Source of the DNA: Microscillaceae bacterium
Lineage (GTDB): Bacteria; Bacteroidota; Bacteroidia; Cytophagales; Microscillaceae
Direction: 5' to 3'
Length of the DNA stretch: 37,684 nucleotides
Assembly (NCBI GenBank): GCA_012031215.1
Contig: JAAUUB010000015.1
Location: 1-37,684 of the forward strand
The position numbers and the translations under genes are program-made. How positions within the stretch are numbered: position 1 is the stretch's first letter; every line of letters starts with the position of its first letter. The notes under the pieces were generated by a model that saw nothing but the letters and a program-made list of their open reading frames with translations, was not told the DNA's origin and made no database searches. Shown here piece after piece: positions 7,321-29,372 of this stretch.

Positions 7321-7668
7321 ATGGAAATCAAAGAATGGGAAGAAGAGGAGTATTTTGGCATTGAGATTTGTGGTGATTTGGATGCCGCCTCCTCCATTGA
7401 ACTGGACAAGACCCTCGAAAAAGTCCTTAAAAAGGAGGTGAAGGCATTGCTGATTGATTGCCAACATCTGCATTATATTGCCTCTGCCGGGCTGGGGGTT
7501 TTTATTTCTTACATTGAACCTTTTCAAGAAAAATCGGTGTTTTTTTGCTTGTATGGTTTAAATGACAAGGTAAGAGATGTATTTCAAATACTGGGATTAG
7601 ATAAACTTTTAGTGATTGTGGACACCAAAGAGGACGCAAAAAAACGAAAGAATGATTCATTATTATAA
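7321..7668 (+). CDS. STAS-domain anti-anti-sigma factor-like protein
   Basis: A 115-residue single STAS domain: EYFGIEICGDLDAASSIELDK forms the first strand-helix unit, ALLIDCQHLHYIASAGLGVFI contains the phosphoacceptor loop (Ser in IASAGLG), and FCLYGLNDKVRDVFQILGLDKLL is the usual C-terminal block. Proteins of this type bind RsbW-like kinases when unphosphorylated and release the kinase's partner. The next gene, overlapping by 17 bases, encodes just such a kinase, so the two form a partner-switch module. No SigB-type sigma factor is adjacent, so the target is unknown. In Bacteroidota such pairs may act on effectors other than sigma factors. Confidence 0.85.
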   Translation: MEIKEWEEEEYFGIEICGDLDAASSIELDKTLEKVLKKEVKALLIDCQHLHYIASAGLGVFISYIEPFQEKSVFFCLYGLNDKVRDVFQILGLDKLLVIVDTKEDAKKRKNDSLL

Positions 7669-8092
7669 AGCTTCTTGCTCTCGCGATAATCTAAAGCTCA
7701 TTCGCAAGTTTGTGGAAGCCGTATTGTTTGAAATGCCCCTGGGTGATATCGAGACCAATCAGCTTATCCTGGCTGTGGACGAGGTGTGTGCCAACCAAAT
7801 CATCCATACTTATAAATGCAATCCTACTAAAAGCATCGAGATTGTCATTCGGGACGAAGCCCCTAACCTGGTTTTCGAAATCATCAATGATGAGGGCAGC
7901 CAATTTGACCTGACCGGATACCAGGACCCTTCTCTGCAAAACATTGTGAAAGAGCGGCGCAAAGGGGGCATCGGCTTGATGCTAGTTCATAAAATTATGG
8001 ACAAAGTAGAAGTGGACCAGCAGGAAACTAAATGCACCTGGAGGCTGGTCAAAAAAATTAATCCCAAAGTAGATATAAAGGCAAACTGTTAA
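7652..8092 (+). CDS. RsbW-like serine kinase / anti-sigma factor (HATPase_c_2)
   Basis: A 146-residue GHKL ATPase of the RsbW/SpoIIAB type. The N-box is LILAVDEVCANQIIHTY, a DEGSQFDLTG segment corresponds to the G1 region, and KGGIGLMLVHKIMDKVE is the G2 box. It should phosphorylate the STAS protein encoded just upstream. The ATG at 7652-7654 lies inside the end of the STAS gene (17-base overlap), implying translational coupling. The frame extends further 5' but only inside the STAS gene, and the family sequence begins at MIHYYKASCSRDNLK. No other domain is present. Confidence 0.87.
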   Translation: MIHYYKASCSRDNLKLIRKFVEAVLFEMPLGDIETNQLILAVDEVCANQIIHTYKCNPTKSIEIVIRDEAPNLVFEIINDEGSQFDLTGYQDPSLQNIVKERRKGGIGLMLVHKIMDKVEVDQQETKCTWRLVKKINPKVDIKANC

Positions 8093-8997: not shown

Positions 8998-10458
8998 TCA
9001 AAACTTCCATTGAATACCCCCCTCTAAGCCAAAACTGAAAGGTGCGAAGCGAAGATAAGCATCCGATTGATTGCGGGCAAACAGGCTTTGCTGAAAAAAA
9101 GGCTGGGCATACAATGACAATGAAGGGCGAAGTTGATACGCGGATTGCCAGGCCATTCTTAGCGACATACTCACATTTCGGTACGCTTTGTTCTCGAGCA
9201 AGGTAAGCCTTTTTTCACTACCCAGATGAGGGTTTTGATACTTTGCCTGCAAAAATAAATCCAGTGAAGTGCCTCCCCACAAGCTATGGGACCATCGTTG
9301 GTGTCGTCCTACTACATAACCCACTTCCAGCGGCAGACTGAGATATTGATAGCTAATTTCCAGTTGAAGTGATTTGTTCTCGTTCAAATGATTGAGATTG
9401 AGCAAATTCAGCCCATTGGGATTGTACCCGGGCAAACTACGCAGCGATCGAGCCAGGTTATCCGTTTGGATGTCCTGGGCCGAGAGTTGAGAAATGAAGG
9501 CGTAAGGCTTCTGGCTGGCCCGGTCTATAAAGTAGGCATTGGTTTGCTGGGTCATCTGCCAGTGTTGATAGGTCAGTCCGGTACGCAATTGCCACCGTGT
9601 CGAGATTTGGTAAGCCACCTGAACAAGGGCTGAAAAAGAGAAGCGGCTTTGGGTTTTTTCATCTAAAGAGGCAAAAAACTGCTCAGTCGGGATATTGGTT
9701 AACTGATGCGCATTCAGGTAGCGGGCCAGGTAGCGGGCATAGTCTTGCTGGAGGTGGGGCTTAAACTGCTGATAGCCAAAAGCCAGGGCAACTGTCCAGG
9801 GGCTTTTGGGAATTCGGGACTGCTTTTTGGGTGCTTTTGGGCTTTGGAGCGTATCCTGAGGCCAATGCCTTGAAGCCGGATTTGACAAAGGCAAAGGAAA
9901 AGCCCCCCAGGAGGGCAAAGCAGCGGCTAAGTATTGGGCCTGGTTTTGCGAAGGGGCGGGCGTAGCTGGTGCCTTTTCGTAATCCTCGGGGGCACTATTC
10001 TCCCTCAAGGGCAACAAAAATGTGTTTCCCGCTTTTTGAGAAAAATTTTTCGGCGGATTCGCTCTAAATTCTATTGAAAAAGGCGGTGGAGGCGACTTCT
10101 GAGAAAAAGAAAGCGGCGGCTCGGTTTGGGATTGCCTCGGTACCGTATGCTTCTCGAGCCTGGGCTGCGTCATGATGCCCCAGAAAGATGCGCTGTGGTT
10201 CGGCACCAAAACTTTTCCATTTTGGGTCGGCATTGCTGCCCCCCGTCTGAGAGGGGATGAAAACTTTTGGAGGCTAAGCCCTAGGCCTATCCCCAGCAAA
10301 ATCACCAGTAACCAAGCCTTTCCCTGCCAAAATCTTTTCTGGCGGTGGCGCAGCTTGCTCTCAATTTCGGCCCAAACTACGGGGCCAGGGTCCATCTTGG
10401 CACCCTCGAGAGCCTTTTTAAAATCATCGGCAAACTTATCTTCCTCGCGCATCGGCAT
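8998..10458 (-). CDS. anti-sigma-like inner-membrane anchor with C-terminal outer-membrane beta-barrel
   Basis: A 486-residue protein with three visible parts. Residues 1-45 are charged and contain PGPVVWAEIESKL, the P..(V/L)W..(I/L)E..L motif also seen in the sigma-linked gene at 27749. Residues about 47-63 (AWLLVILLGIGLGLSL) form one transmembrane helix. Residues about 70-210 are Pro/Ser/Gln-rich and low complexity, like a periplasm-spanning linker. From about 215 to the end the sequence alternates aromatic and polar residues (WTVALAFGYQQF, WQLRTGLTYQHW, LEGGIQWKF with a terminal Phe), as in the Bacteroidota outer-membrane beta-barrel family. It overlaps the upstream ECF sigma gene by 23 bases. 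I infer an envelope-spanning sensor/anti-sigma factor. An alternative start is the Met at 10452. Confidence 0.75.
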   Translation of the reverse strand: MPMREEDKFADDFKKALEGAKMDPGPVVWAEIESKLRHRQKRFWQGKAWLLVILLGIGLGLSLQKFSSPLRRGAAMPTQNGKVLVPNHSASFWGIMTQPRLEKHTVPRQSQTEPPLSFSQKSPPPPFSIEFRANPPKNFSQKAGNTFLLPLRENSAPEDYEKAPATPAPSQNQAQYLAAALPSWGAFPLPLSNPASRHWPQDTLQSPKAPKKQSRIPKSPWTVALAFGYQQFKPHLQQDYARYLARYLNAHQLTNIPTEQFFASLDEKTQSRFSFSALVQVAYQISTRWQLRTGLTYQHWQMTQQTNAYFIDRASQKPYAFISQLSAQDIQTDNLARSLRSLPGYNPNGLNLLNLNHLNENKSLQLEISYQYLSLPLEVGYVVGRHQRWSHSLWGGTSLDLFLQAKYQNPHLGSEKRLTLLENKAYRNVSMSLRMAWQSAYQLRPSLSLYAQPFFQQSLFARNQSDAYLRFAPFSFGLEGGIQWKF

Positions 10459-11059
10459 AGCTTACCCGTTCATTTTCTTTTATCATTTCTTGCAATAGCA
10501 GTTTGGCACGCGCATACTGTGATTTAGAAGTACCCTCAGTGATTTCAAGCATCTCCGCTATCTCGCGATGCCCGTAGCCTTCAATGGCATATAAATTAAA
10601 AACCAAACGACAACGTTCAGGCAGTTTTTGGACGAAGCCCAATAATTCGGTAAAATTATAGTGAGATAGGGTAAGTTCAACATCGGGAACCAGATTTTCT
10701 ATTTCGGCTACATCCTGAAAAGAGTAAGCCACGTGCTTGCGGCGGTTATGATTCAGAGCAGTATTAATAACAATGCGTTTTATCCAAAATTCGAGCGGGC
10801 AATCGCCCCGAAAAGTGCCGATATGTTCAAAAACTTTCAAAAAAGCTTCTTGGAGGATGTCCTCGGCATCGAGGCGGGAAGGGGCATAGCGCATCGCTAC
10901 GGCAAACATATACGGACTGTAATGTTCGTAGAGTTCGCGCTGTTTGCGCCTTTTTCCTTTACGGCATCCTTCTACTAATAAACTTTCATCTCGCATGGCA
11001 GCACGGCTAGAACATTCCCTTAGATTTATCTTTTCGGGACTATTTTTGGAAGAAAGCAT
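10436..11059 (-). CDS. ECF RNA polymerase sigma factor
   Basis: Up to 207 residues with region 2 (YEHYSPYMFAVAMRY, DAEDILQEAFLKVFEHI, PLEFWIKRIVINTALNHNRR) and region 4 (LPERCRLVFNLYAIEGY, HREIAEMLEITEGTSKSQ, YARAKLLLQEMI). The helix-turn-helix ending TSKSQ is typical of a Bacteroidota ECF group and also occurs in the sigma factor at 27143. The open frame starts at the ATG at 11057-11059; the Met at 10996 (MRDESLLVEGC) better matches the family N-terminus, so the first 21 residues may not be translated. The 3' end overlaps the anti-sigma/barrel gene, the expected arrangement for a sigma/anti-sigma pair. Confidence 0.88.
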   Translation of the reverse strand: MLSSKNSPEKINLRECSSRAAMRDESLLVEGCRKGKRRKQRELYEHYSPYMFAVAMRYAPSRLDAEDILQEAFLKVFEHIGTFRGDCPLEFWIKRIVINTALNHNRRKHVAYSFQDVAEIENLVPDVELTLSHYNFTELLGFVQKLPERCRLVFNLYAIEGYGHREIAEMLEITEGTSKSQYARAKLLLQEMIKENERVSYADARGR

Positions 11060-11088: not shown

Positions 11089-11913
11089 TCAAGAGACCTT
11101 GCCTACGGCATACGTATCACCCTCAGAAACTGGCACTCCGCCCGCTTTCTCGAGGGTAACCACGAAAGCATCGGCCCGGGGAGCAGTTTTCATTTTTTGA
11201 AGCTGTGCCGCAAAATCTCCCATTTCAAATACGCCCCCGTCCATTACCTTTTGTCCATCTACAAACCAAAGCTGATATTGTTTGCCCGTCGGAGGTTCGG
11301 GTAGGTTTTTCACCTGTAAATACACCTCCTGGGTTTGAGGATTCCAATAGACCCGGACTTGGGCCTCAGGGTGTTCTTTGACCCCTTCAAGGGAAACCAG
11401 GCGGGTGGCCGGATTCTTTAAGACACTTAATTCCTGGGTGGCTTGTGCCAATTGCTGGCGCTGAAGGGATGTCTGTTGGGCAAACTGTTGGTTGCCGAGA
11501 AGACTGGTCCGGAGTGCTGATTCGGCCTTTTGCCAGTTTTGATAGAGCCATAGATTAAGCCCCATACTGACCAGCAGAAGCAAAGAAGCCGCCACTGCCA
11601 GTAAAGGCTTTAAAGACCCCCACCTCGCCTTGTAGGCAACCGTAAGTGGCTTGGCTTCTACGGGAGCAGCAAGCAAGTCTTCTTCCTCAAGGGCCGCCAA
11701 TTTCTTAATGACCTTGTCGCGCAGTTCAAGTGGAGGCTCCTGCCTACACTCAAGAATATATTCCATCAATGCAAATTGATTGGCTTCAATTTCACGGCGG
11801 ATTTCCGGGTATTGTTGAGACAAACGTTCCAACTCCTGCGCCTCTTCAGGCGTAGCCGCCCCCAACACATAATTCTCGATTATGCCCGATTCCAAATAAT
11901 TTTTCAGATTCAA
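11089..11913 (-). CDS. RskA-type anti-sigma factor
   Basis: A 274-residue protein. Residues 1-75 form the cytoplasmic sigma-binding part (SGIIENYVLGAATPEEAQELERL, the usual anti-sigma-K start), residues about 103-124 are a transmembrane helix (LLAVAASLLLLVSMGLNLWL), a Gln-rich coiled coil follows, and residues about 180-274 are the RskA C-terminal domain (YWNPQTQEVYLQVKNLPEPP, YQLWFVDGQKVMDGGVF, AFVVTLEKAGGVP). It should hold the SigK-like factor encoded 7 bases upstream until released by regulated proteolysis. The operon is therefore sigma then anti-sigma. Another ECF gene follows 29 bases downstream. Confidence 0.9.
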   Translation of the reverse strand: MNLKNYLESGIIENYVLGAATPEEAQELERLSQQYPEIRREIEANQFALMEYILECRQEPPLELRDKVIKKLAALEEEDLLAAPVEAKPLTVAYKARWGSLKPLLAVAASLLLLVSMGLNLWLYQNWQKAESALRTSLLGNQQFAQQTSLQRQQLAQATQELSVLKNPATRLVSLEGVKEHPEAQVRVYWNPQTQEVYLQVKNLPEPPTGKQYQLWFVDGQKVMDGGVFEMGDFAAQLQKMKTAPRADAFVVTLEKAGGVPVSEGDTYAVGKVS

Positions 11914-11920
11914 TGTGTTT

Positions 11921-12463
11921 TTAAGTTAATTTTCTTAATTCTCGCAAGGCAATTTTGACCCGGGACTTGAGCGTACCCAAAGGTAAATCTAACTTCTGCG
12001 CCGCTTCTACATGCGACAAACCGCCAAAATAGATGGCTTCAATCACCTGCCTGTGCTCAGGGGCCAGGCGCGCCACCAGGCTGTCGAGCCCAATGTGTTC
12101 TACCACCAGATAGCTGTTTTCCGTCGCGGCCATCCGGGTGTTTTCCAGGGCTTGGCCCTGCTGATGGTCTTGATAAGCCCTTGAGCGCAATTTATCGATA
12201 GCAGTGTTGCGGGCAATGTTCAAAATCCAGGTAAAAAGCCGACCTTTGCTTTCATCATAGGTATCGATCTTACGCCAAATTTTTACAAAACTATCTTGCA
12301 AGGCCTCCTGCGCCCATTCTTCTGCCTTCAATACTTTGAGGCAAAGCCCATACAGGGCGGGCGAGTAGTTTTGATATAAACTTTCAAAACTACGGCGGTT
12401 TTTTTGCTTTAATCCAGCAACGAGCTCGATTTCTTCAAGGGATGGTTTTGAACTTGTCAGCAA
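11921..12463 (-). CDS. ECF sigma factor, SigK-like
   Basis: A 180-residue ECF sigma factor: LYQNYSPALYGLCLKVLK and AQEALQDSFVKIWRKIDTYD (region 2.1-2.2), GRLFTWILNIARNTAIDKLRS (region 2.4), and region 4 LAPEHRQVIEAIYFGGLSHVEAA ending LPLGTLKSRVKIALRELRKL. The KGRLFTWILNIARNTAIDKLR and GTLKSRV blocks are characteristic of the SigK-type group, which pairs with RskA anti-sigma factors. The RskA gene is the next gene, 7 bases downstream. ECF operons are usually autoregulated, but I could not identify a -35/-10 pair upstream with confidence. Confidence 0.92.
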   Translation of the reverse strand: MLTSSKPSLEEIELVAGLKQKNRRSFESLYQNYSPALYGLCLKVLKAEEWAQEALQDSFVKIWRKIDTYDESKGRLFTWILNIARNTAIDKLRSRAYQDHQQGQALENTRMAATENSYLVVEHIGLDSLVARLAPEHRQVIEAIYFGGLSHVEAAQKLDLPLGTLKSRVKIALRELRKLT

Positions 12464-18785: not shown

Positions 18786-20042
18786 GTGGAAGCAATTATA
18801 CAAAACCAAGCCGTGGTGCTGGGCATCTTAATGGCAATTCTCGCTTTGGTGTTTTGGTCAATGGAACTCAAGGCTCCTTTTTGGCAAAAGTTTTATCAAT
18901 ACGTACCAGCCCTACTGCTTTGCTATTTTTTACCCTCTCTGCTCAATATCACCTGGCTAAAAGGGAGTGCGGGGGCATTTCGGCTGGTTGATGGTGAAAA
19001 CTCGCCTCTGTATGAGGTAGCTTCCCGTTATCTGCTCCCGGCCAGTCTCATTTTATTGACCCTCAACATTGATTTTCCGGCCTTGCGGCGCTTGGGGCCA
19101 AAGGCATTGGTGATGTTTCTGACAGGCACATTGGGCATTATATTGGGCGGGCCGATTGCTTTTTTGATAGTGGCTTGGCTTTCGCCCGAAACCGTAGCGG
19201 GAGAGGTTTGGCGAGGACTCACCACCATTGCAGGCAGTTGGATTGGAGGCGGGGCTAATCAGGCCGCTATGAAGGAAGTATTTGCGGTAAACGAAGCCGT
19301 TTTTTCGGCCATGATCGCCATCGATGTCATCACGGCCAATATCTGGATGGCCGTTTTACTTTATGGGGCCGGCATTTCGCAAAGCATAGACCAGTGGTTA
19401 AAAGCAGATAACCAGGCGGTGGAAGAGGTAAAGCAAAAAGTGGCGGCCTTTGAAGCCCGCACAGCCCGGATTCCCCAATTGTCAGATTGGATGCAGATAG
19501 CCGGGCTGGCCTTTGGAGGCGTAGCCCTTGCGCACGCTCTTGCGGACATGATTGCGCCTTACCTGGCCACCCAGGCCCCCTACCTGGAAGCCTTCAGCCT
19601 TACCTCAGGATTTTTCTGGATTGTCGTGTTGGCAACCACATTTGGCTTGCTGCTCTCCCTCAGTCCGGCCCGCCAACTGGAAGGCGCGGGGGCTTCCAAG
19701 ATGGGCAGTCTTTTGTTGTATATCCTGATTGCTACGATTGGCCTGAAAATGGACATCAGCGCCATTTTAGACAAACCCATGCTTTTTGTGCTTGGTTTAA
19801 TCTGGATGCTGGTACACGCAGTTTTGTTGCTGGGGGTGGCCTGGCTTATCAAAGCTCCTTTTTTCTTTGTGGCCGTGGGGAGCCAAGCCAATGTTGGGGG
19901 AGCTGCATCAGCGCCAATAGTAGCCTCGGCTTTTCATCCGGCACTGGCCCCTGTGGGGGTGCTCTTGGCGGTTTTGGGCTATGCTTTGGGTACGTATGGG
20001 GCCTGGCTTTGTGGAATTCTTCTGAGGATATTGGCTGTTTAA
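18786..20042 (+). CDS. DUF819 family integral membrane protein
   Basis: A 418-residue protein with about ten transmembrane helices. The DUF819 (YjcL-like) landmarks are LFxxxRLLPASLILLTLNIDFPALRRLGPKAL-like sequence (residues about 85-110), TTIAGSWIGGGANQAAMKEVF (about 145-165), MIAIDVITANIWMAVLLYGAG, and a second half with IGLKMDISAIL and FVAVGSQANVGGAASAPIVA. The two inverted halves with Gly-rich SWxGGGANQ and SQANVGGAAS loops resemble the bile-acid/sodium symporter-like fold, so a transporter role is plausible; the substrate is unknown. The start is GTG at 18786 because family members begin with a similar IIQNQAVVLGILM segment and no nearer ATG fits. A terminator follows. Confidence 0.88.
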   Translation: MEAIIQNQAVVLGILMAILALVFWSMELKAPFWQKFYQYVPALLLCYFLPSLLNITWLKGSAGAFRLVDGENSPLYEVASRYLLPASLILLTLNIDFPALRRLGPKALVMFLTGTLGIILGGPIAFLIVAWLSPETVAGEVWRGLTTIAGSWIGGGANQAAMKEVFAVNEAVFSAMIAIDVITANIWMAVLLYGAGISQSIDQWLKADNQAVEEVKQKVAAFEARTARIPQLSDWMQIAGLAFGGVALAHALADMIAPYLATQAPYLEAFSLTSGFFWIVVLATTFGLLLSLSPARQLEGAGASKMGSLLLYILIATIGLKMDISAILDKPMLFVLGLIWMLVHAVLLLGVAWLIKAPFFFVAVGSQANVGGAASAPIVASAFHPALAPVGVLLAVLGYALGTYGAWLCGILLRILAV

Positions 20043-26973: not shown

Positions 26974-27005
26974 AAACACCCAGGCTTCATCCTGGGTGTT
27001 TTTTT
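26974..27005 (+). terminator. Rho-independent terminator
   Basis: AAACACCCAGG (26974-26984) pairs perfectly with CCTGGGTGTTT (26991-27001) around CTTCAT, with the T run continuing to 27005. It lies 22 bases after the stop of the Cys-rich protein gene and marks the end of that unit before the ECF sigma operon. Confidence 0.88.
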
Positions 27006-27142
27006 GGATGGCATACACAAAAAGAATTTCATTTATGCCCAAGGGGTGCAACCATTTGCTAAACCAGCAGTCTTTGGAAAGAATAAAGGTTTTTGAAACG
27101 AGCCGCACAATCATATACCCAAATGTAAGCCAAAACCACAAG

Positions 27143-27703
27143 ATGTTGAAAATCAGAAACCAAGCTCCGCCCGATACACACGGAGCACTCGTGGAGGCCT
27201 GCCGCCGGGGAGACCCCAATGCCCAAAGGCGGCTATACGAACAGTACGCTTCGGCCATGTTTACCATCTGTATGCGGATGACCAACCAACGCGACGAAGC
27301 CGAGGATATTCTCCAGGAAGCTTTTTGCGATGCCTTCCGTAGGATTAATTCTTTTAAAGGCGAGTCAACTTTTGGGGCCTGGCTCAAGCGCATTGTCATC
27401 AATCGAAGTATTAACCATCTCAAAAGAAAACGCCTGGACTGGGTAAGCCTCGAGGGGCGCGATTTTAGGGAAGAAGAAGAAGGGCCGGAAGCAGAAACGA
27501 CCACCCATTGGGAAGTGCAAAAAGTGCATCGTGGTATTCAGGCTTTGCCCGATGGCTTCCGGATGGTGCTCACGCTTTATCTTATTGAGGGCTATGACCA
27601 CGGCGAAATTGCCGAAATACTCAACATCAGTGAATCTACCTCCAAATCACAATACAACCGAGCCAAGAAAAGATTGCTAAAAATTCTACAAACAGAAAAC
27701 TAA
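27143..27703 (+). CDS. ECF RNA polymerase sigma factor
   Basis: A 186-residue ECF sigma factor: LVEACRRGDPNAQRRLYEQY, YASAMFTICMRMTNQRDEAEDI and LQEAFCDAFRRINSFKGEST (region 2), GAWLKRIVINRSINHLKRK, and region 4 ALPDGFRMVLTLYLIEGYDHGE with helix-turn-helix EIAEILNISESTSKSQYNR. It closely resembles the sigma factor at 10436 in both regions, including the TSKSQ recognition helix end. The ATG at 27143 is chosen; the longer frame runs back through the preceding terminator. The next gene, 45 bases downstream, encodes a membrane protein with the same N-terminal motif as the other sigma partner. Confidence 0.92.
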   Translation: MLKIRNQAPPDTHGALVEACRRGDPNAQRRLYEQYASAMFTICMRMTNQRDEAEDILQEAFCDAFRRINSFKGESTFGAWLKRIVINRSINHLKRKRLDWVSLEGRDFREEEEGPEAETTTHWEVQKVHRGIQALPDGFRMVLTLYLIEGYDHGEIAEILNISESTSKSQYNRAKKRLLKILQTEN

Positions 27704-27748: not shown

Positions 27749-28327
27749 ATGAAAAAAGAACTTTCCGATAAACAGTTAGAAGATTTTATCCGACAACACC
27801 GCGAAGACCTCCAACATCAGTTTGTGCCTTCGCCCGGCCTTTGGAACAAACTCGAGAAGGAGCTGCATCCTAAGGCCCCCAGGCTCATCACGATTCGCTA
27901 CACGCACCTCCGCAACCTGGCCGCTTTTGTGTTGTTGTGTCTGGCAATTGGCCTCGGGCTTTGGTGGTCAAAAAGCGCGCCTTCCGAAAACGCGCCATCG
28001 CTCTCGCTGGCCGCTTTGCATCCCCACCTGGCCGAAGCCGAACAGTATTACAGCCGGGTCATTGCCGAAAAAAGAGCCAAAATAAACCACTATCCGCTCG
28101 AGCAAATGGGCCTGTATGATGAATTTCAAGGCGACCTGAATGAACTGGACGAAATGTATCGCCAACTAAAGACCGAACTTTTGCAAGGCCCGGCCCCGGA
28201 ATCCGTACAGGATGCGATGATACAAAATTTACAGATGCGTCTCCGGGTACTTAACCAGCAATTGGAAGTTTTAGAAAAAATGAAAGATTATCAAAAATCC
28301 ATTCCCCATGAAAAACAAATTTTTTAA
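27749..28327 (+). CDS. probable membrane anti-sigma factor
   Basis: A 192-residue protein with a charged N-terminus (LSDKQLEDFIRQHREDLQHQ), then PSPGLWNKLEKEL, the P..(V/L)W..(I/L)E..L motif shared with the protein at 8998. One transmembrane helix follows (residues about 55-73, LRNLAAFVLLCLAIGLGLWW). The periplasmic part is helical: HPHLAEAEQYYSRVIAEKRA, DEFQGDLNELDEMYRQLKTEL and a coiled-coil end (MRLRVLNQQLEVLEKMKDY). Position directly after an ECF sigma gene and this topology argue for an anti-sigma factor, though no named anti-sigma domain is certain. Its 3' end overlaps the next gene by 20 bases, implying coupled translation. Confidence 0.75.
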   Translation: MKKELSDKQLEDFIRQHREDLQHQFVPSPGLWNKLEKELHPKAPRLITIRYTHLRNLAAFVLLCLAIGLGLWWSKSAPSENAPSLSLAALHPHLAEAEQYYSRVIAEKRAKINHYPLEQMGLYDEFQGDLNELDEMYRQLKTELLQGPAPESVQDAMIQNLQMRLRVLNQQLEVLEKMKDYQKSIPHEKQIF

Positions 28328-29372
28328 ATCCCGACTTCCTATTGCCGGGGCCTTGTGGTGGGTTTTTACACTGAGCGCCGCAGCTCAGGTAAAACAAAGT
28401 AAAACCCTGCAACACAATTTTCCCTTGAGTGGGTCCAGCAGTCTGAGTATTATCAACAAATACGGCCAGATTCACGTCAATACGGCTCCGGTAGCCCAGA
28501 TACAGATCAAAATCCTGATTACAGCCGATGCAAAAAATACCGAAACCGCCCAAAAAATCCTCAGTGGCCTGGAGGTAAAAGTGCAAAGCGGCCCCCAGAT
28601 TAGCTTGGAAACCGTGGCCTCGCTGGGCTGGAAGAACCTGATGAACGAAGTGCAGATACAGTCTTTGCAAGGCAATCAAACGGTTCCTGTCAAAACCAGT
28701 TCAAAGGCCGATTATCAGGTAGATTATACCATTACAATGCCCGAAAACTTCCCCCTCAGCCTCAATAACCGCTTTGGAGGGATTTATGTAGGCAAGCATA
28801 CCGGGCGGCTTCAGCTTTGGCTGGAATATGGCAGCCTCAAAACTGGCCGCCTTGAGGGCAATGACAAAAAGATTGTGAATGTAAAATTTGGCAATGCCGA
28901 TATTGACTATGCCGAAGAAGCCGAGATTACGATGGCCTATTCCACCCTTCGGCTCAATCAAGCCCAGCGAATCTATTTTGAAGGCAAATACGGGAACGCC
29001 GAAATAGGGCAAGTCCACCATATTACGGGCAGTTCGGCTTATTCACAGTTTCAACTGAGCACATTGACCGGAAATCTGACGATGAGTACCCGCCACGACG
29101 GTCGCTTTCAGGTGGGGCCAGTGGCCAACCGCTTCGGGCAGGTCGAAATCACGGGCGAATACAGCCAGATAAGCCTTACTATGGCTCCCGAAGCCAGCTA
29201 TAATTTTGAGTTTGACCTGAAATATGCCCGCCTGGAAGGCTCTCAAAACGGTTTTCAGTTTCAACACAAGCAGGAGGCCAATACCTCCGCCTTTTATCAG
29301 GGCAGGAAAGGCTCTGGTGGCAGTAGTCGTCTTAAGGTCGTTTCTCGCTATGGCGATGTGAGCCTGCTTTAA
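28308..29372 (+). CDS. secreted DUF4097-like beta-helix protein
   Basis: A 354-residue protein with a signal peptide (LPIAGALWWVFTLSAAAQ). The rest is repetitive beta-strand sequence of the putative-adhesin (DUF4097-like) type: SSLSIINKYGQIHVNTAPVA, NFPLSLNNRFGGIYVGKHTG, LQLWLEYGSLKTGRLEG, NVKFGNADIDYAEEAEITMA, IYFEGKYGNAEIG and LKVVSRYGDVSLL. The repeated N.(F/Y)G.(I/A).(I/V) turns mark a beta-helix or stacked-strand fold. Such genes often follow ECF sigma/anti-sigma pairs in Bacteroidota. It may be the regulated product or a sensor partner of the operon. A hairpin lies just after the stop. Confidence 0.82.
   Translation: MKNKFFKSRLPIAGALWWVFTLSAAAQVKQSKTLQHNFPLSGSSSLSIINKYGQIHVNTAPVAQIQIKILITADAKNTETAQKILSGLEVKVQSGPQISLETVASLGWKNLMNEVQIQSLQGNQTVPVKTSSKADYQVDYTITMPENFPLSLNNRFGGIYVGKHTGRLQLWLEYGSLKTGRLEGNDKKIVNVKFGNADIDYAEEAEITMAYSTLRLNQAQRIYFEGKYGNAEIGQVHHITGSSAYSQFQLSTLTGNLTMSTRHDGRFQVGPVANRFGQVEITGEYSQISLTMAPEASYNFEFDLKYARLEGSQNGFQFQHKQEANTSAFYQGRKGSGGSSRLKVVSRYGDVSLL

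Follow-up and report, generated by a model that had tools for sequence, protein, structure and literature searches.

We analysed a 37,684-nucleotide (nt) stretch of the genome of a Microscillaceae bacterium (GenBank assembly GCA_012031215.1, contig JAAUUB010000015.1, positions 1 to 37,684; hereafter, the window), which carries on its reverse strand a gene for an extracytoplasmic function (ECF) sigma factor overlapped by a gene for a 486-residue protein. We consider it highly probable that the two form a pair of a Das-like ECF sigma factor and a Dma-type anti-sigma factor, in which a cytoplasmic head holds the sigma factor, a membrane helix and a tether connect the head to an outer-membrane barrel, and disturbance of the outer membrane frees the sigma factor. 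Judged by sequence, the 486-residue protein is a member of the described Dma family of Bacteroides and Phocaeicola, and not a new kind of system. The features of the locus are as follows (aa, amino acids; evidence in parentheses):

10436–11059, reverse strand: ECF sigma factor (Das-like), 207 aa, stop included (open reading frame and domain matches)
8998–10458, reverse strand: Dma-type anti-sigma protein, 486 aa (Pfam, AlphaFold2, family profile)
10436–10458, reverse strand: overlap of sigma gene end and Dma gene start, 23 nt (reading-frame coordinates)
10324–10458, reverse strand: cytoplasmic head, residues 1–45, proposed sigma-binding module (model, conservation, alignment)
10261–10317, reverse strand: predicted inner-membrane helix, about residues 48–66 (hydropathy, model)
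9799–10260, reverse strand: disordered Pro/Ser-rich tether, about residues 67–220, 154 aa (confidence score, composition)
9001–9798, reverse strand: predicted C-terminal eight-stranded OmpA-like outer-membrane barrel, residues 221–486 (Pfam, model, structure comparison)

An earlier note on this DNA had read the gene overlapping the sigma gene as encoding a head, one membrane helix, a Pro/Ser-rich stretch, and a barrel ending in Phe, all in one protein; the 23-nt overlap and, through Pfam, AlphaFold2, and conservation, the head, helix, barrel, and terminal Phe are borne out. The AlphaFold2 model of the full protein, for which the input was an alignment of 53 rows, has a mean predicted local distance difference test score (pLDDT) of 74.8 and a predicted template modelling score (pTM) of 0.60, and contains the barrel that the note had expected. 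In particular, the model shows helices at residues 6–19 and 26–65, with the two helices of the head arranged around the conserved residues Pro24-x4-Trp29-x2-Ile32-x3-Leu36; most of residues 66–205 at pLDDT below 50; and eight strands, each of at least 11 residues, between residues 221 and 485. The barrel is modelled with high confidence (18 of the 27 ten-residue blocks from residue 221 onward average at least 90), has partly helical loops at about residues 321–363, matches PF13568 (OMP_b-brl_2) at residues 267–486 (29.5 bits; curated cut-off, 27), and resembles OmpA over 165 residues (VIA Z 14.9, root-mean-square deviation 2.6). Both chain ends of the OmpA fold face the periplasm, an arrangement compatible with a chain that comes in from the inner membrane. 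The Pro/Ser-rich stretch is likewise present (27 Pro and 18 Ser), at 154 aa instead of the about 140 residues given in the note; across the 53 rows, its length ranges from 101 to 291 aa (median, 187). The helix has a hydropathy of 1.79 at residues 48–66, with values of at least 1.3 in 52 of the 53 rows, and probably sits in the inner membrane. A library search at E values up to 1 gave no match to a TonB-dependent receptor or to FecR in the 486-aa protein, in agreement with the contrast that the note had drawn with FecA/FecR systems, and searches of Pfam and NCBIfam at the same threshold gave no match to RskA_C or to a zinc-binding anti-sigma domain.

The sigma factor contains regions 2 and 4 (Pfam: Sigma70_r2, 2e-15; Sigma70_r4_2, 8.3e-14) and is 45–56% identical to the sigma factors of 18 relatives (alignment A1); a later in-frame ATG (Met22, position 10996) is an alternative possible start. 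The sigma and Dma genes overlap or are separated by a short gap in most relatives as well, and the 23-nt overlap suggests translational coupling of the two.

The pairing of the two genes is conserved in both directions of search. The Dma protein was found in 24 of 146 genomes (own genome included), and all but one of these loci (23 of 24) have immediately upstream a sigma gene that ends within the open Dma frame and that, in loci other than our own, is 42–60% identical to the window's sigma factor over the matched part. The sole locus without an upstream sigma gene (L003) starts at a contig end; in one further locus (L004), the sigma gene is spread over two frames, and in two (L006 and L018), it is truncated where the examined stretch ends. 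The reverse search, with the sigma alignment against named genomes, gave at least 575 loci, of which the best 80 were kept. A downstream gene is in place in 79 of these 80 (L073 runs off its contig), and a profile of the head matches 78 of the 79 downstream genes (exception, L081). All of the best 80 of the at least 575 loci carry Bacteroidota names, with a query built from the window's relatives, and weaker sigma matches are also present in other phyla; the named relatives are mostly in Cytophagales. No relative of the Dma protein was found in viral contigs.

Within the family, the head and barrel are more strongly conserved across the 53 rows than the stretch between them. Residue Trp29 of 'PGPVVWAEIESKL' is invariant in all 53 aligned rows, own included, and Pro24 and Leu36 are present in 98% and 94%, respectively. 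At E 0.01, PF13568 matches 40 and PF13505 matches 21 of the 53 aligned members; mean column identity in the family alignment A2 is 17%.

The Dma family was reportedly first described in Bacteroides thetaiotaomicron, in a founding paper of 2024 (PNAS). In the accessible part of PMC13088901, Dma proteins are described as having an N-terminal anti-sigma domain, a membrane helix, a disordered tether, and a C-terminal barrel, as being encoded next to an ECF21 sigma factor, and as occurring solely in Bacteroidota. The same part reports that, in B. thetaiotaomicron, Dma1 represses Das1 and the effect of a dma2 deletion requires das2, and gives the gene order das2, dma2, BT_1557, BT_1556, BT_1555. We assessed membership by sequence, inspecting sigma matches in named Bacteroidales records. 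One Bacteroides finegoldii record shows the order sigma, barrel protein, DUF4943, DUF4858, nitronate monooxygenase, which corresponds to the das2-dma2-BT_1557-BT_1556-BT_1555 order given in that part of PMC13088901 (Dma2-like); a second B. finegoldii record has a NigD-like gene beside the sigma and barrel-protein genes (Dma1-like). Both barrel proteins match Pfam barrels at or above cut-off, and both retain Trp29. The window-family profile matches the Dma2-like protein at 61.8 bits in total (head plus helix, 29.2 bits, independent E value 1.3e-6 at Z=50000; barrel, 29.0 bits) and the Dma1-like protein at 60.2 bits (N-terminal match, 32.8 bits, running into the tether), so that in both proteins the N-terminal and barrel regions are each significant alone. 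The profile also matches homologues from P. massiliensis (98.3 bits) and Parabacteroides (85.9 bits), while the controls score low: 10.8 bits for the RskA-like protein of the window, and no more than 8.6 bits for other OMP_b-brl_2 barrels of its genome. These matches, together with the low controls, place the window protein in the Dma family. For the sigma factor, no ECF21 model turned up in the libraries searched; identity to the sigma factors of the B. finegoldii Dma1-like and Dma2-like loci is 34–37%.

The window pair differs from these relatives in degree and setting. Compared with the B. finegoldii proteins, identity over the full anti-sigma protein is 15–16%, below the value for the sigma factors, and the neighbouring genes differ from those of Bacteroides Dma loci, with an RskA-like gene upstream and a dienelactone hydrolase gene downstream. 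In the FecA/FecR/FecI system, an outer-membrane barrel, an inner-membrane anti-sigma factor, and an ECF sigma factor are likewise joined in one chain, but there the barrel is a separate TonB-dependent receptor, whereas the small barrel of the window protein is part of the anti-sigma polypeptide. RskA/SigK resembles the window pair in having an inner-membrane anti-sigma factor encoded next to its ECF sigma gene; the RskA-like protein of the same window (pair at 11089–12463) has an RskA_C domain and no barrel, and its match to the Dma profile is not significant. As far as the accessible text goes, Dma1/Das1 and Dma2/Das2 of B. thetaiotaomicron share with the window pair the N-terminal sigma-binding domain (predicted here), the inner-membrane helix, the tether, the barrel, and the adjacent ECF sigma gene. 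The accessible part of PMC9308784 describes, for M0N98_03760/03761 of P. vulgatus and the EcfO system of B. fragilis, a large anti-sigma factor with an inner-membrane helix and an outer-membrane barrel encoded downstream of the sigma gene, as in the window; those hosts belong to another order of Bacteroidota than the host of the window. One polypeptide reaching from the sigma factor to the outer membrane, as the earlier note had supposed, is thus supported, with a wiring like that reported for Dma1/Dma2 (PMC13088901, accessible part) and M0N98_03760 (PMC9308784, likewise), and the same layout beside ECF genes, which that note had proposed to look for, recurs throughout the loci above. The earlier reading is right in kind; the layout is already in print as Dma.

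The upstream regions of the das genes point to a shared promoter and a candidate target. In the 80 loci, we searched from 250 nt ahead of das to 30 nt into the gene, and found T-N-CAAC-N15..18-GTC in 46 (42 of these with N18) and not in the other 34. In the controls, none of the 80 loci had the motif on the reverse strand or within the sigma gene, and the count averaged 1.0 over 50 shuffles and never exceeded 5; since many of the 80 loci are close relatives, these counts are not independent cases. The strict form occurs at 55 sites in 804 kb, against 6.1 expected, and the 8-mer TTCCAACC is present in 17 of 36 upstream stretches (35 loci across genera plus the window). A gene for an LVIVD beta-propeller protein lies downstream in 24 of the 80 loci (PF08309 in all four scanned), with CAAC-N15..19-GTC within the 220 nt before it in 19 of the 24 and T-N-CAAC-N18-GTC in 18; the controls, on the reverse strand and within the gene, gave 1 of 24 each. 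The genome of the window has one LVIVD gene elsewhere (39% identity, PF08309), whose start is preceded, at a distance of about 60 nt, by a site of the common form (L240, 1349–1373). No promoter site was found at three other Das-like genes of this genome, and T-N-CAAC-N18-GTC was absent from the seven named plasmid-record loci. The das genes of relatives thus appear to share a promoter that also stands before the LVIVD gene, which makes the latter a testable candidate regulon member. The accessible part of PMC9723704 describes, in Flavobacterium psychrophilum, a class of ECF promoters that carry a CGT box at −10 and stand before a sigma/anti-sigma operon and type IX secretion system (T9SS) genes; that class may be of the same type as the das promoter, in which case the das promoter may be partly in print.

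In the mechanism that we propose, the head (residues 1–45) would hold the sigma factor in the cytoplasm, the helix (48–66) would cross the inner membrane with its N-terminus inside, the 154-residue disordered tether would span the periplasm, and the eight-stranded C-terminal barrel would sit in the outer membrane. Disturbance of the outer membrane or of barrel assembly would cut or loosen this link, most likely by regulated proteolysis of the tether or helix, and the freed sigma factor would transcribe its regulon, which in relatives probably comprises the sigma operon itself and the LVIVD beta-propeller gene. The topology, the signal, and the proteolysis step are what we infer for the window system, and binding of the sigma factor by the window protein is presumed by analogy with Dma1, for which it is reported in the accessible part of PMC13088901. 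According to the accessible part of PMC9308784, transposon insertions in P. vulgatus M0N98_03760, an anti-sigma factor with the Dma layout, activate its sigma factor, expression of the sigma gene rises 33-fold after treatment with BcpT, and many BcpT-induced genes are also induced by a bacteroidetocin that binds BamA; these data favour outer-membrane or barrel-assembly stress as the signal.

Several observations weigh against this mechanism or against parts of it. The charges on the two sides of the helix differ little in this protein (+4 ahead of it, +3 behind it), and the bias has the direction expected for the proposed topology in 34 of the 53 rows. The sigma factor and head from Runella, folded as one chain, gave a pTM of 0.43 and no sign of docking, which is not evidence against binding; the head blocks have pLDDT 68–91, with a drop to 58 at the end, and the structure comparison was limited to model residues 1–177, the sigma part. 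On the B. finegoldii proteins, the profile of the head alone scores low (2.8 and 6.9 bits), so that the link to Dma rests on the head plus helix and on the barrel. Among six proteins encoded downstream of sigma matches in plasmid records, one from Spirosoma (L220) matches the profile weakly (E 4e-4) and one from Parabacteroides (L221, 182 aa) has no profile match. Finally, the das promoter of relatives is absent from the 300 nt before the window's first sigma gene, so that self-regulation is not supported here; this gene instead stands 29 bp downstream of the RskA-like gene.

The helix could instead belong to a signal sequence that has a long N-region and is cleaved off, leaving an ordinary small outer-membrane barrel whose gene merely adjoins a sigma gene. 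The protein does have a single hydrophobic helix, 47 residues from its start, and secreted OMP_b-brl_2 barrels exist in the same genome; however, a conserved hydrophilic head of about 45 residues with the Trp29, Pro24, and Leu36 pattern is no feature of a signal peptide, and the head recurs with other C-terminal parts, also in tandem copies, and behind an ECF sigma gene in 38 of 40 inspected loci, so that we regard this explanation as very improbable. Some FecR-type regulators are both inhibitors and co-activators of their sigma factors, and a head with such a dual role would account for two overlapping genes that stay together in 23 of 24 loci. Against it, in the accessible parts of the two reports, loss of the anti-sigma gene activates the regulon in P. 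vulgatus (PMC9308784) and the effect of the dma2 deletion in B. thetaiotaomicron needs das2 (PMC13088901), and a co-activating head appears improbable to us, slightly less so than the signal sequence.

A variant of the proposed anti-sigma mechanism holds that the barrel senses its own assembly in the outer membrane and binds no ligand: an inserted barrel would keep the system off, and failed insertion would expose the protein to proteases and free the sigma factor. The overlap of the BcpT and bacteroidetocin responses in P. vulgatus (PMC9308784, accessible part) fits this variant, as does the retention of the barrel in sequences as divergent as those of A2, whereas the loops at about residues 321–363 could bind a ligand, and the authors of PMC13088901, in the part accessible, favour an unknown surface glycan as the signal for Dma2. 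We regard pure assembly sensing as plausible and, on balance, somewhat doubtful.

The head also occurs outside full-length Dma proteins. A search with the head profile matched 67 of 296 genomes of the phylum, own included, in 125 rows that represent at most 123 proteins (G404 and G233 each have two rows per frame): 61 rows are of 400–700 aa, 53 are of 180–300 aa, and 11 are of other sizes. Three paralogues from our own genome are in this profile, so that this genome is no independent case. Of 40 head loci chosen by the analyst for inspection, 38 lie directly behind an ECF sigma gene, among them two (L196 and L197) in genomes from outside the window's class; L198 and L199, which have no sigma gene and which by their look we take to be SusD-like, were rejected as false matches. 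With the bias filter off, five short proteins score 41 to 65 bits against the N-terminal part of the Dma profile.

In a split form, represented by 17 loci (L171–L187) with single-head proteins of about 240–265 aa, the next gene encodes a protein with a hydrophobic leader, judged by eye. Eleven of these secreted neighbours were scanned: five pass the PF13568 cut-off, one falls just below, and five, of Flavobacterium type, have no barrel match. Ten Flavobacterium-type secreted proteins align to the barrel-containing split set at 99.8% probability, so that the two split sets are related. Common descent of the fused and split barrels was also considered and is not shown (45% probability; 0.4% for the Flavobacterium-type set). 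In the split form, the head-helix-tether protein and the separate secreted protein or barrel may work together. At L196, L197, L200, L213, and L221, as at the second pair of the window described below, the next gene is presumably DUF4097-like.

In tandem forms, the head itself is multiplied. L056 (5533–7212) has five diverged head copies and L067 (1920–3512) has three, in each case before one predicted helix; the copies score 24 to 30 bits each with a profile built without both proteins. The barrel match of L056 is weak (21.4 bits; cut-off, 27), and L067 has no barrel match in Pfam. L188, L189, and L190 have two to four head copies, some weak, without a barrel, and a further protein in the genome of L056 (L230) has two weak copies. 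The unit of about 33 residues has multiplied and the remainder has stayed single, which is good evidence of a working module. A correspondence between the number of heads and the number of sigma factors was not borne out: the five-head genome has four sigma genes (37–56% identity) and the three-head genome has five (35–54%).

With confidence and doubt in nearly equal measure, we suggest that the head of about 33 residues may be a self-contained sigma-binding module of a superfamily larger than Dma, in which the barrel would be fused, separate, or absent, two to five copies of the head may allow a single membrane protein to hold several sigma molecules or several kinds of them, and the sigma factors, once released, would use T-N-CAAC-N18-GTC and drive their own operon and the LVIVD beta-propeller surface protein. 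In the literature searched, tandem heads, split barrels, and the T-N-CAAC-N18-GTC promoter are not reported for Dma; the founding Dma paper may cover part of this.

The window carries a second pair, on the forward strand:

27143–27703, forward strand: second Das-like sigma factor, 45% identical to the first (start 27143 chosen within the open reading frame 26996–27703)
27749–28327, forward strand: second protein with head and helix, 192 aa (24.3 bits with the A2 profile, E 4e-5 at Z=50000)
28308–29372, forward strand: secreted protein after the second head protein (no Pfam match over cut-off)
27047–27072, forward strand: site resembling the Das-type promoter, some 70 nt ahead of the second sigma gene (spacing one base less than in the common form)

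No barrel was found in the 27749 protein with Pfam, and it is likely a single-membrane cousin of Dma. The whole window contains two promoter-like matches, the other at 19242 on the reverse strand, so that position alone supports the site at 27047. With a head profile built without the own-genome paralogues, the paralogue L046 scores 11.6 bits and the 27749 protein 10.0, next to 9.9 for a short chance frame, and L047 and L048 have no match. With the A2 profile, used with the HMMER bias filter off and with matches that run into the low-complexity tether, L046, L047, the 27749 protein, and L048 score 41.0, 42.3, 24.3, and 5.0 bits, respectively. As the head matches are at chance level, the kinship of the paralogues rests on the longer A2 profile and on the adjacent sigma genes; the four clear own-genome matches obtained with alignment A3 are partly circular, since three of these paralogues are in A3. 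The secreted protein after L046 has no Pfam match. L048, on contig C72 of the same genome, is another sigma/head locus; a long frame follows downstream, and the sigma and head frames are broken, by either assembly error or decay.

Upstream of the first pair, a SigK/RskA-like sigma/anti-sigma pair (11089–12463, reverse strand) ends 29 bp before the Das-like gene, so that two sigma systems stand in tandem; the gene downstream of the Dma gene encodes a dienelactone hydrolase. A conserved tandem was looked for and rejected: tblastn at 1e-5 gave no match to RskA or to the hydrolase in any of the 80 genome loci, and SigK had no match there at 36% identity or above, weaker SigK matches having been dropped because Das genes themselves produce them. 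With no conserved SigK/RskA tandem in the 80 loci, we claim no cascade. Two overlapping open reading frames at 7321–8092 (forward strand) resemble a STAS-domain protein and an RsbW-like kinase, which we take to be perhaps a partner-switch pair. Scans of the window with Rfam at gathering level and for tRNAs gave no match.

These results place the Dma design in Cytophagales and link it through sequence to Bacteroides proteins whose phenotypes are known, which makes results from gut bacteria transferable to free-living bacteria. What they may add to the known Dma family are repeated heads, split forms, and a promoter shared with a likely target. The tandem-head and split relatives bear on which part binds the sigma factor and on how a signal from the barrel crosses the periplasm, and the promoter common to das and its LVIVD target would offer a reporter for the signal.

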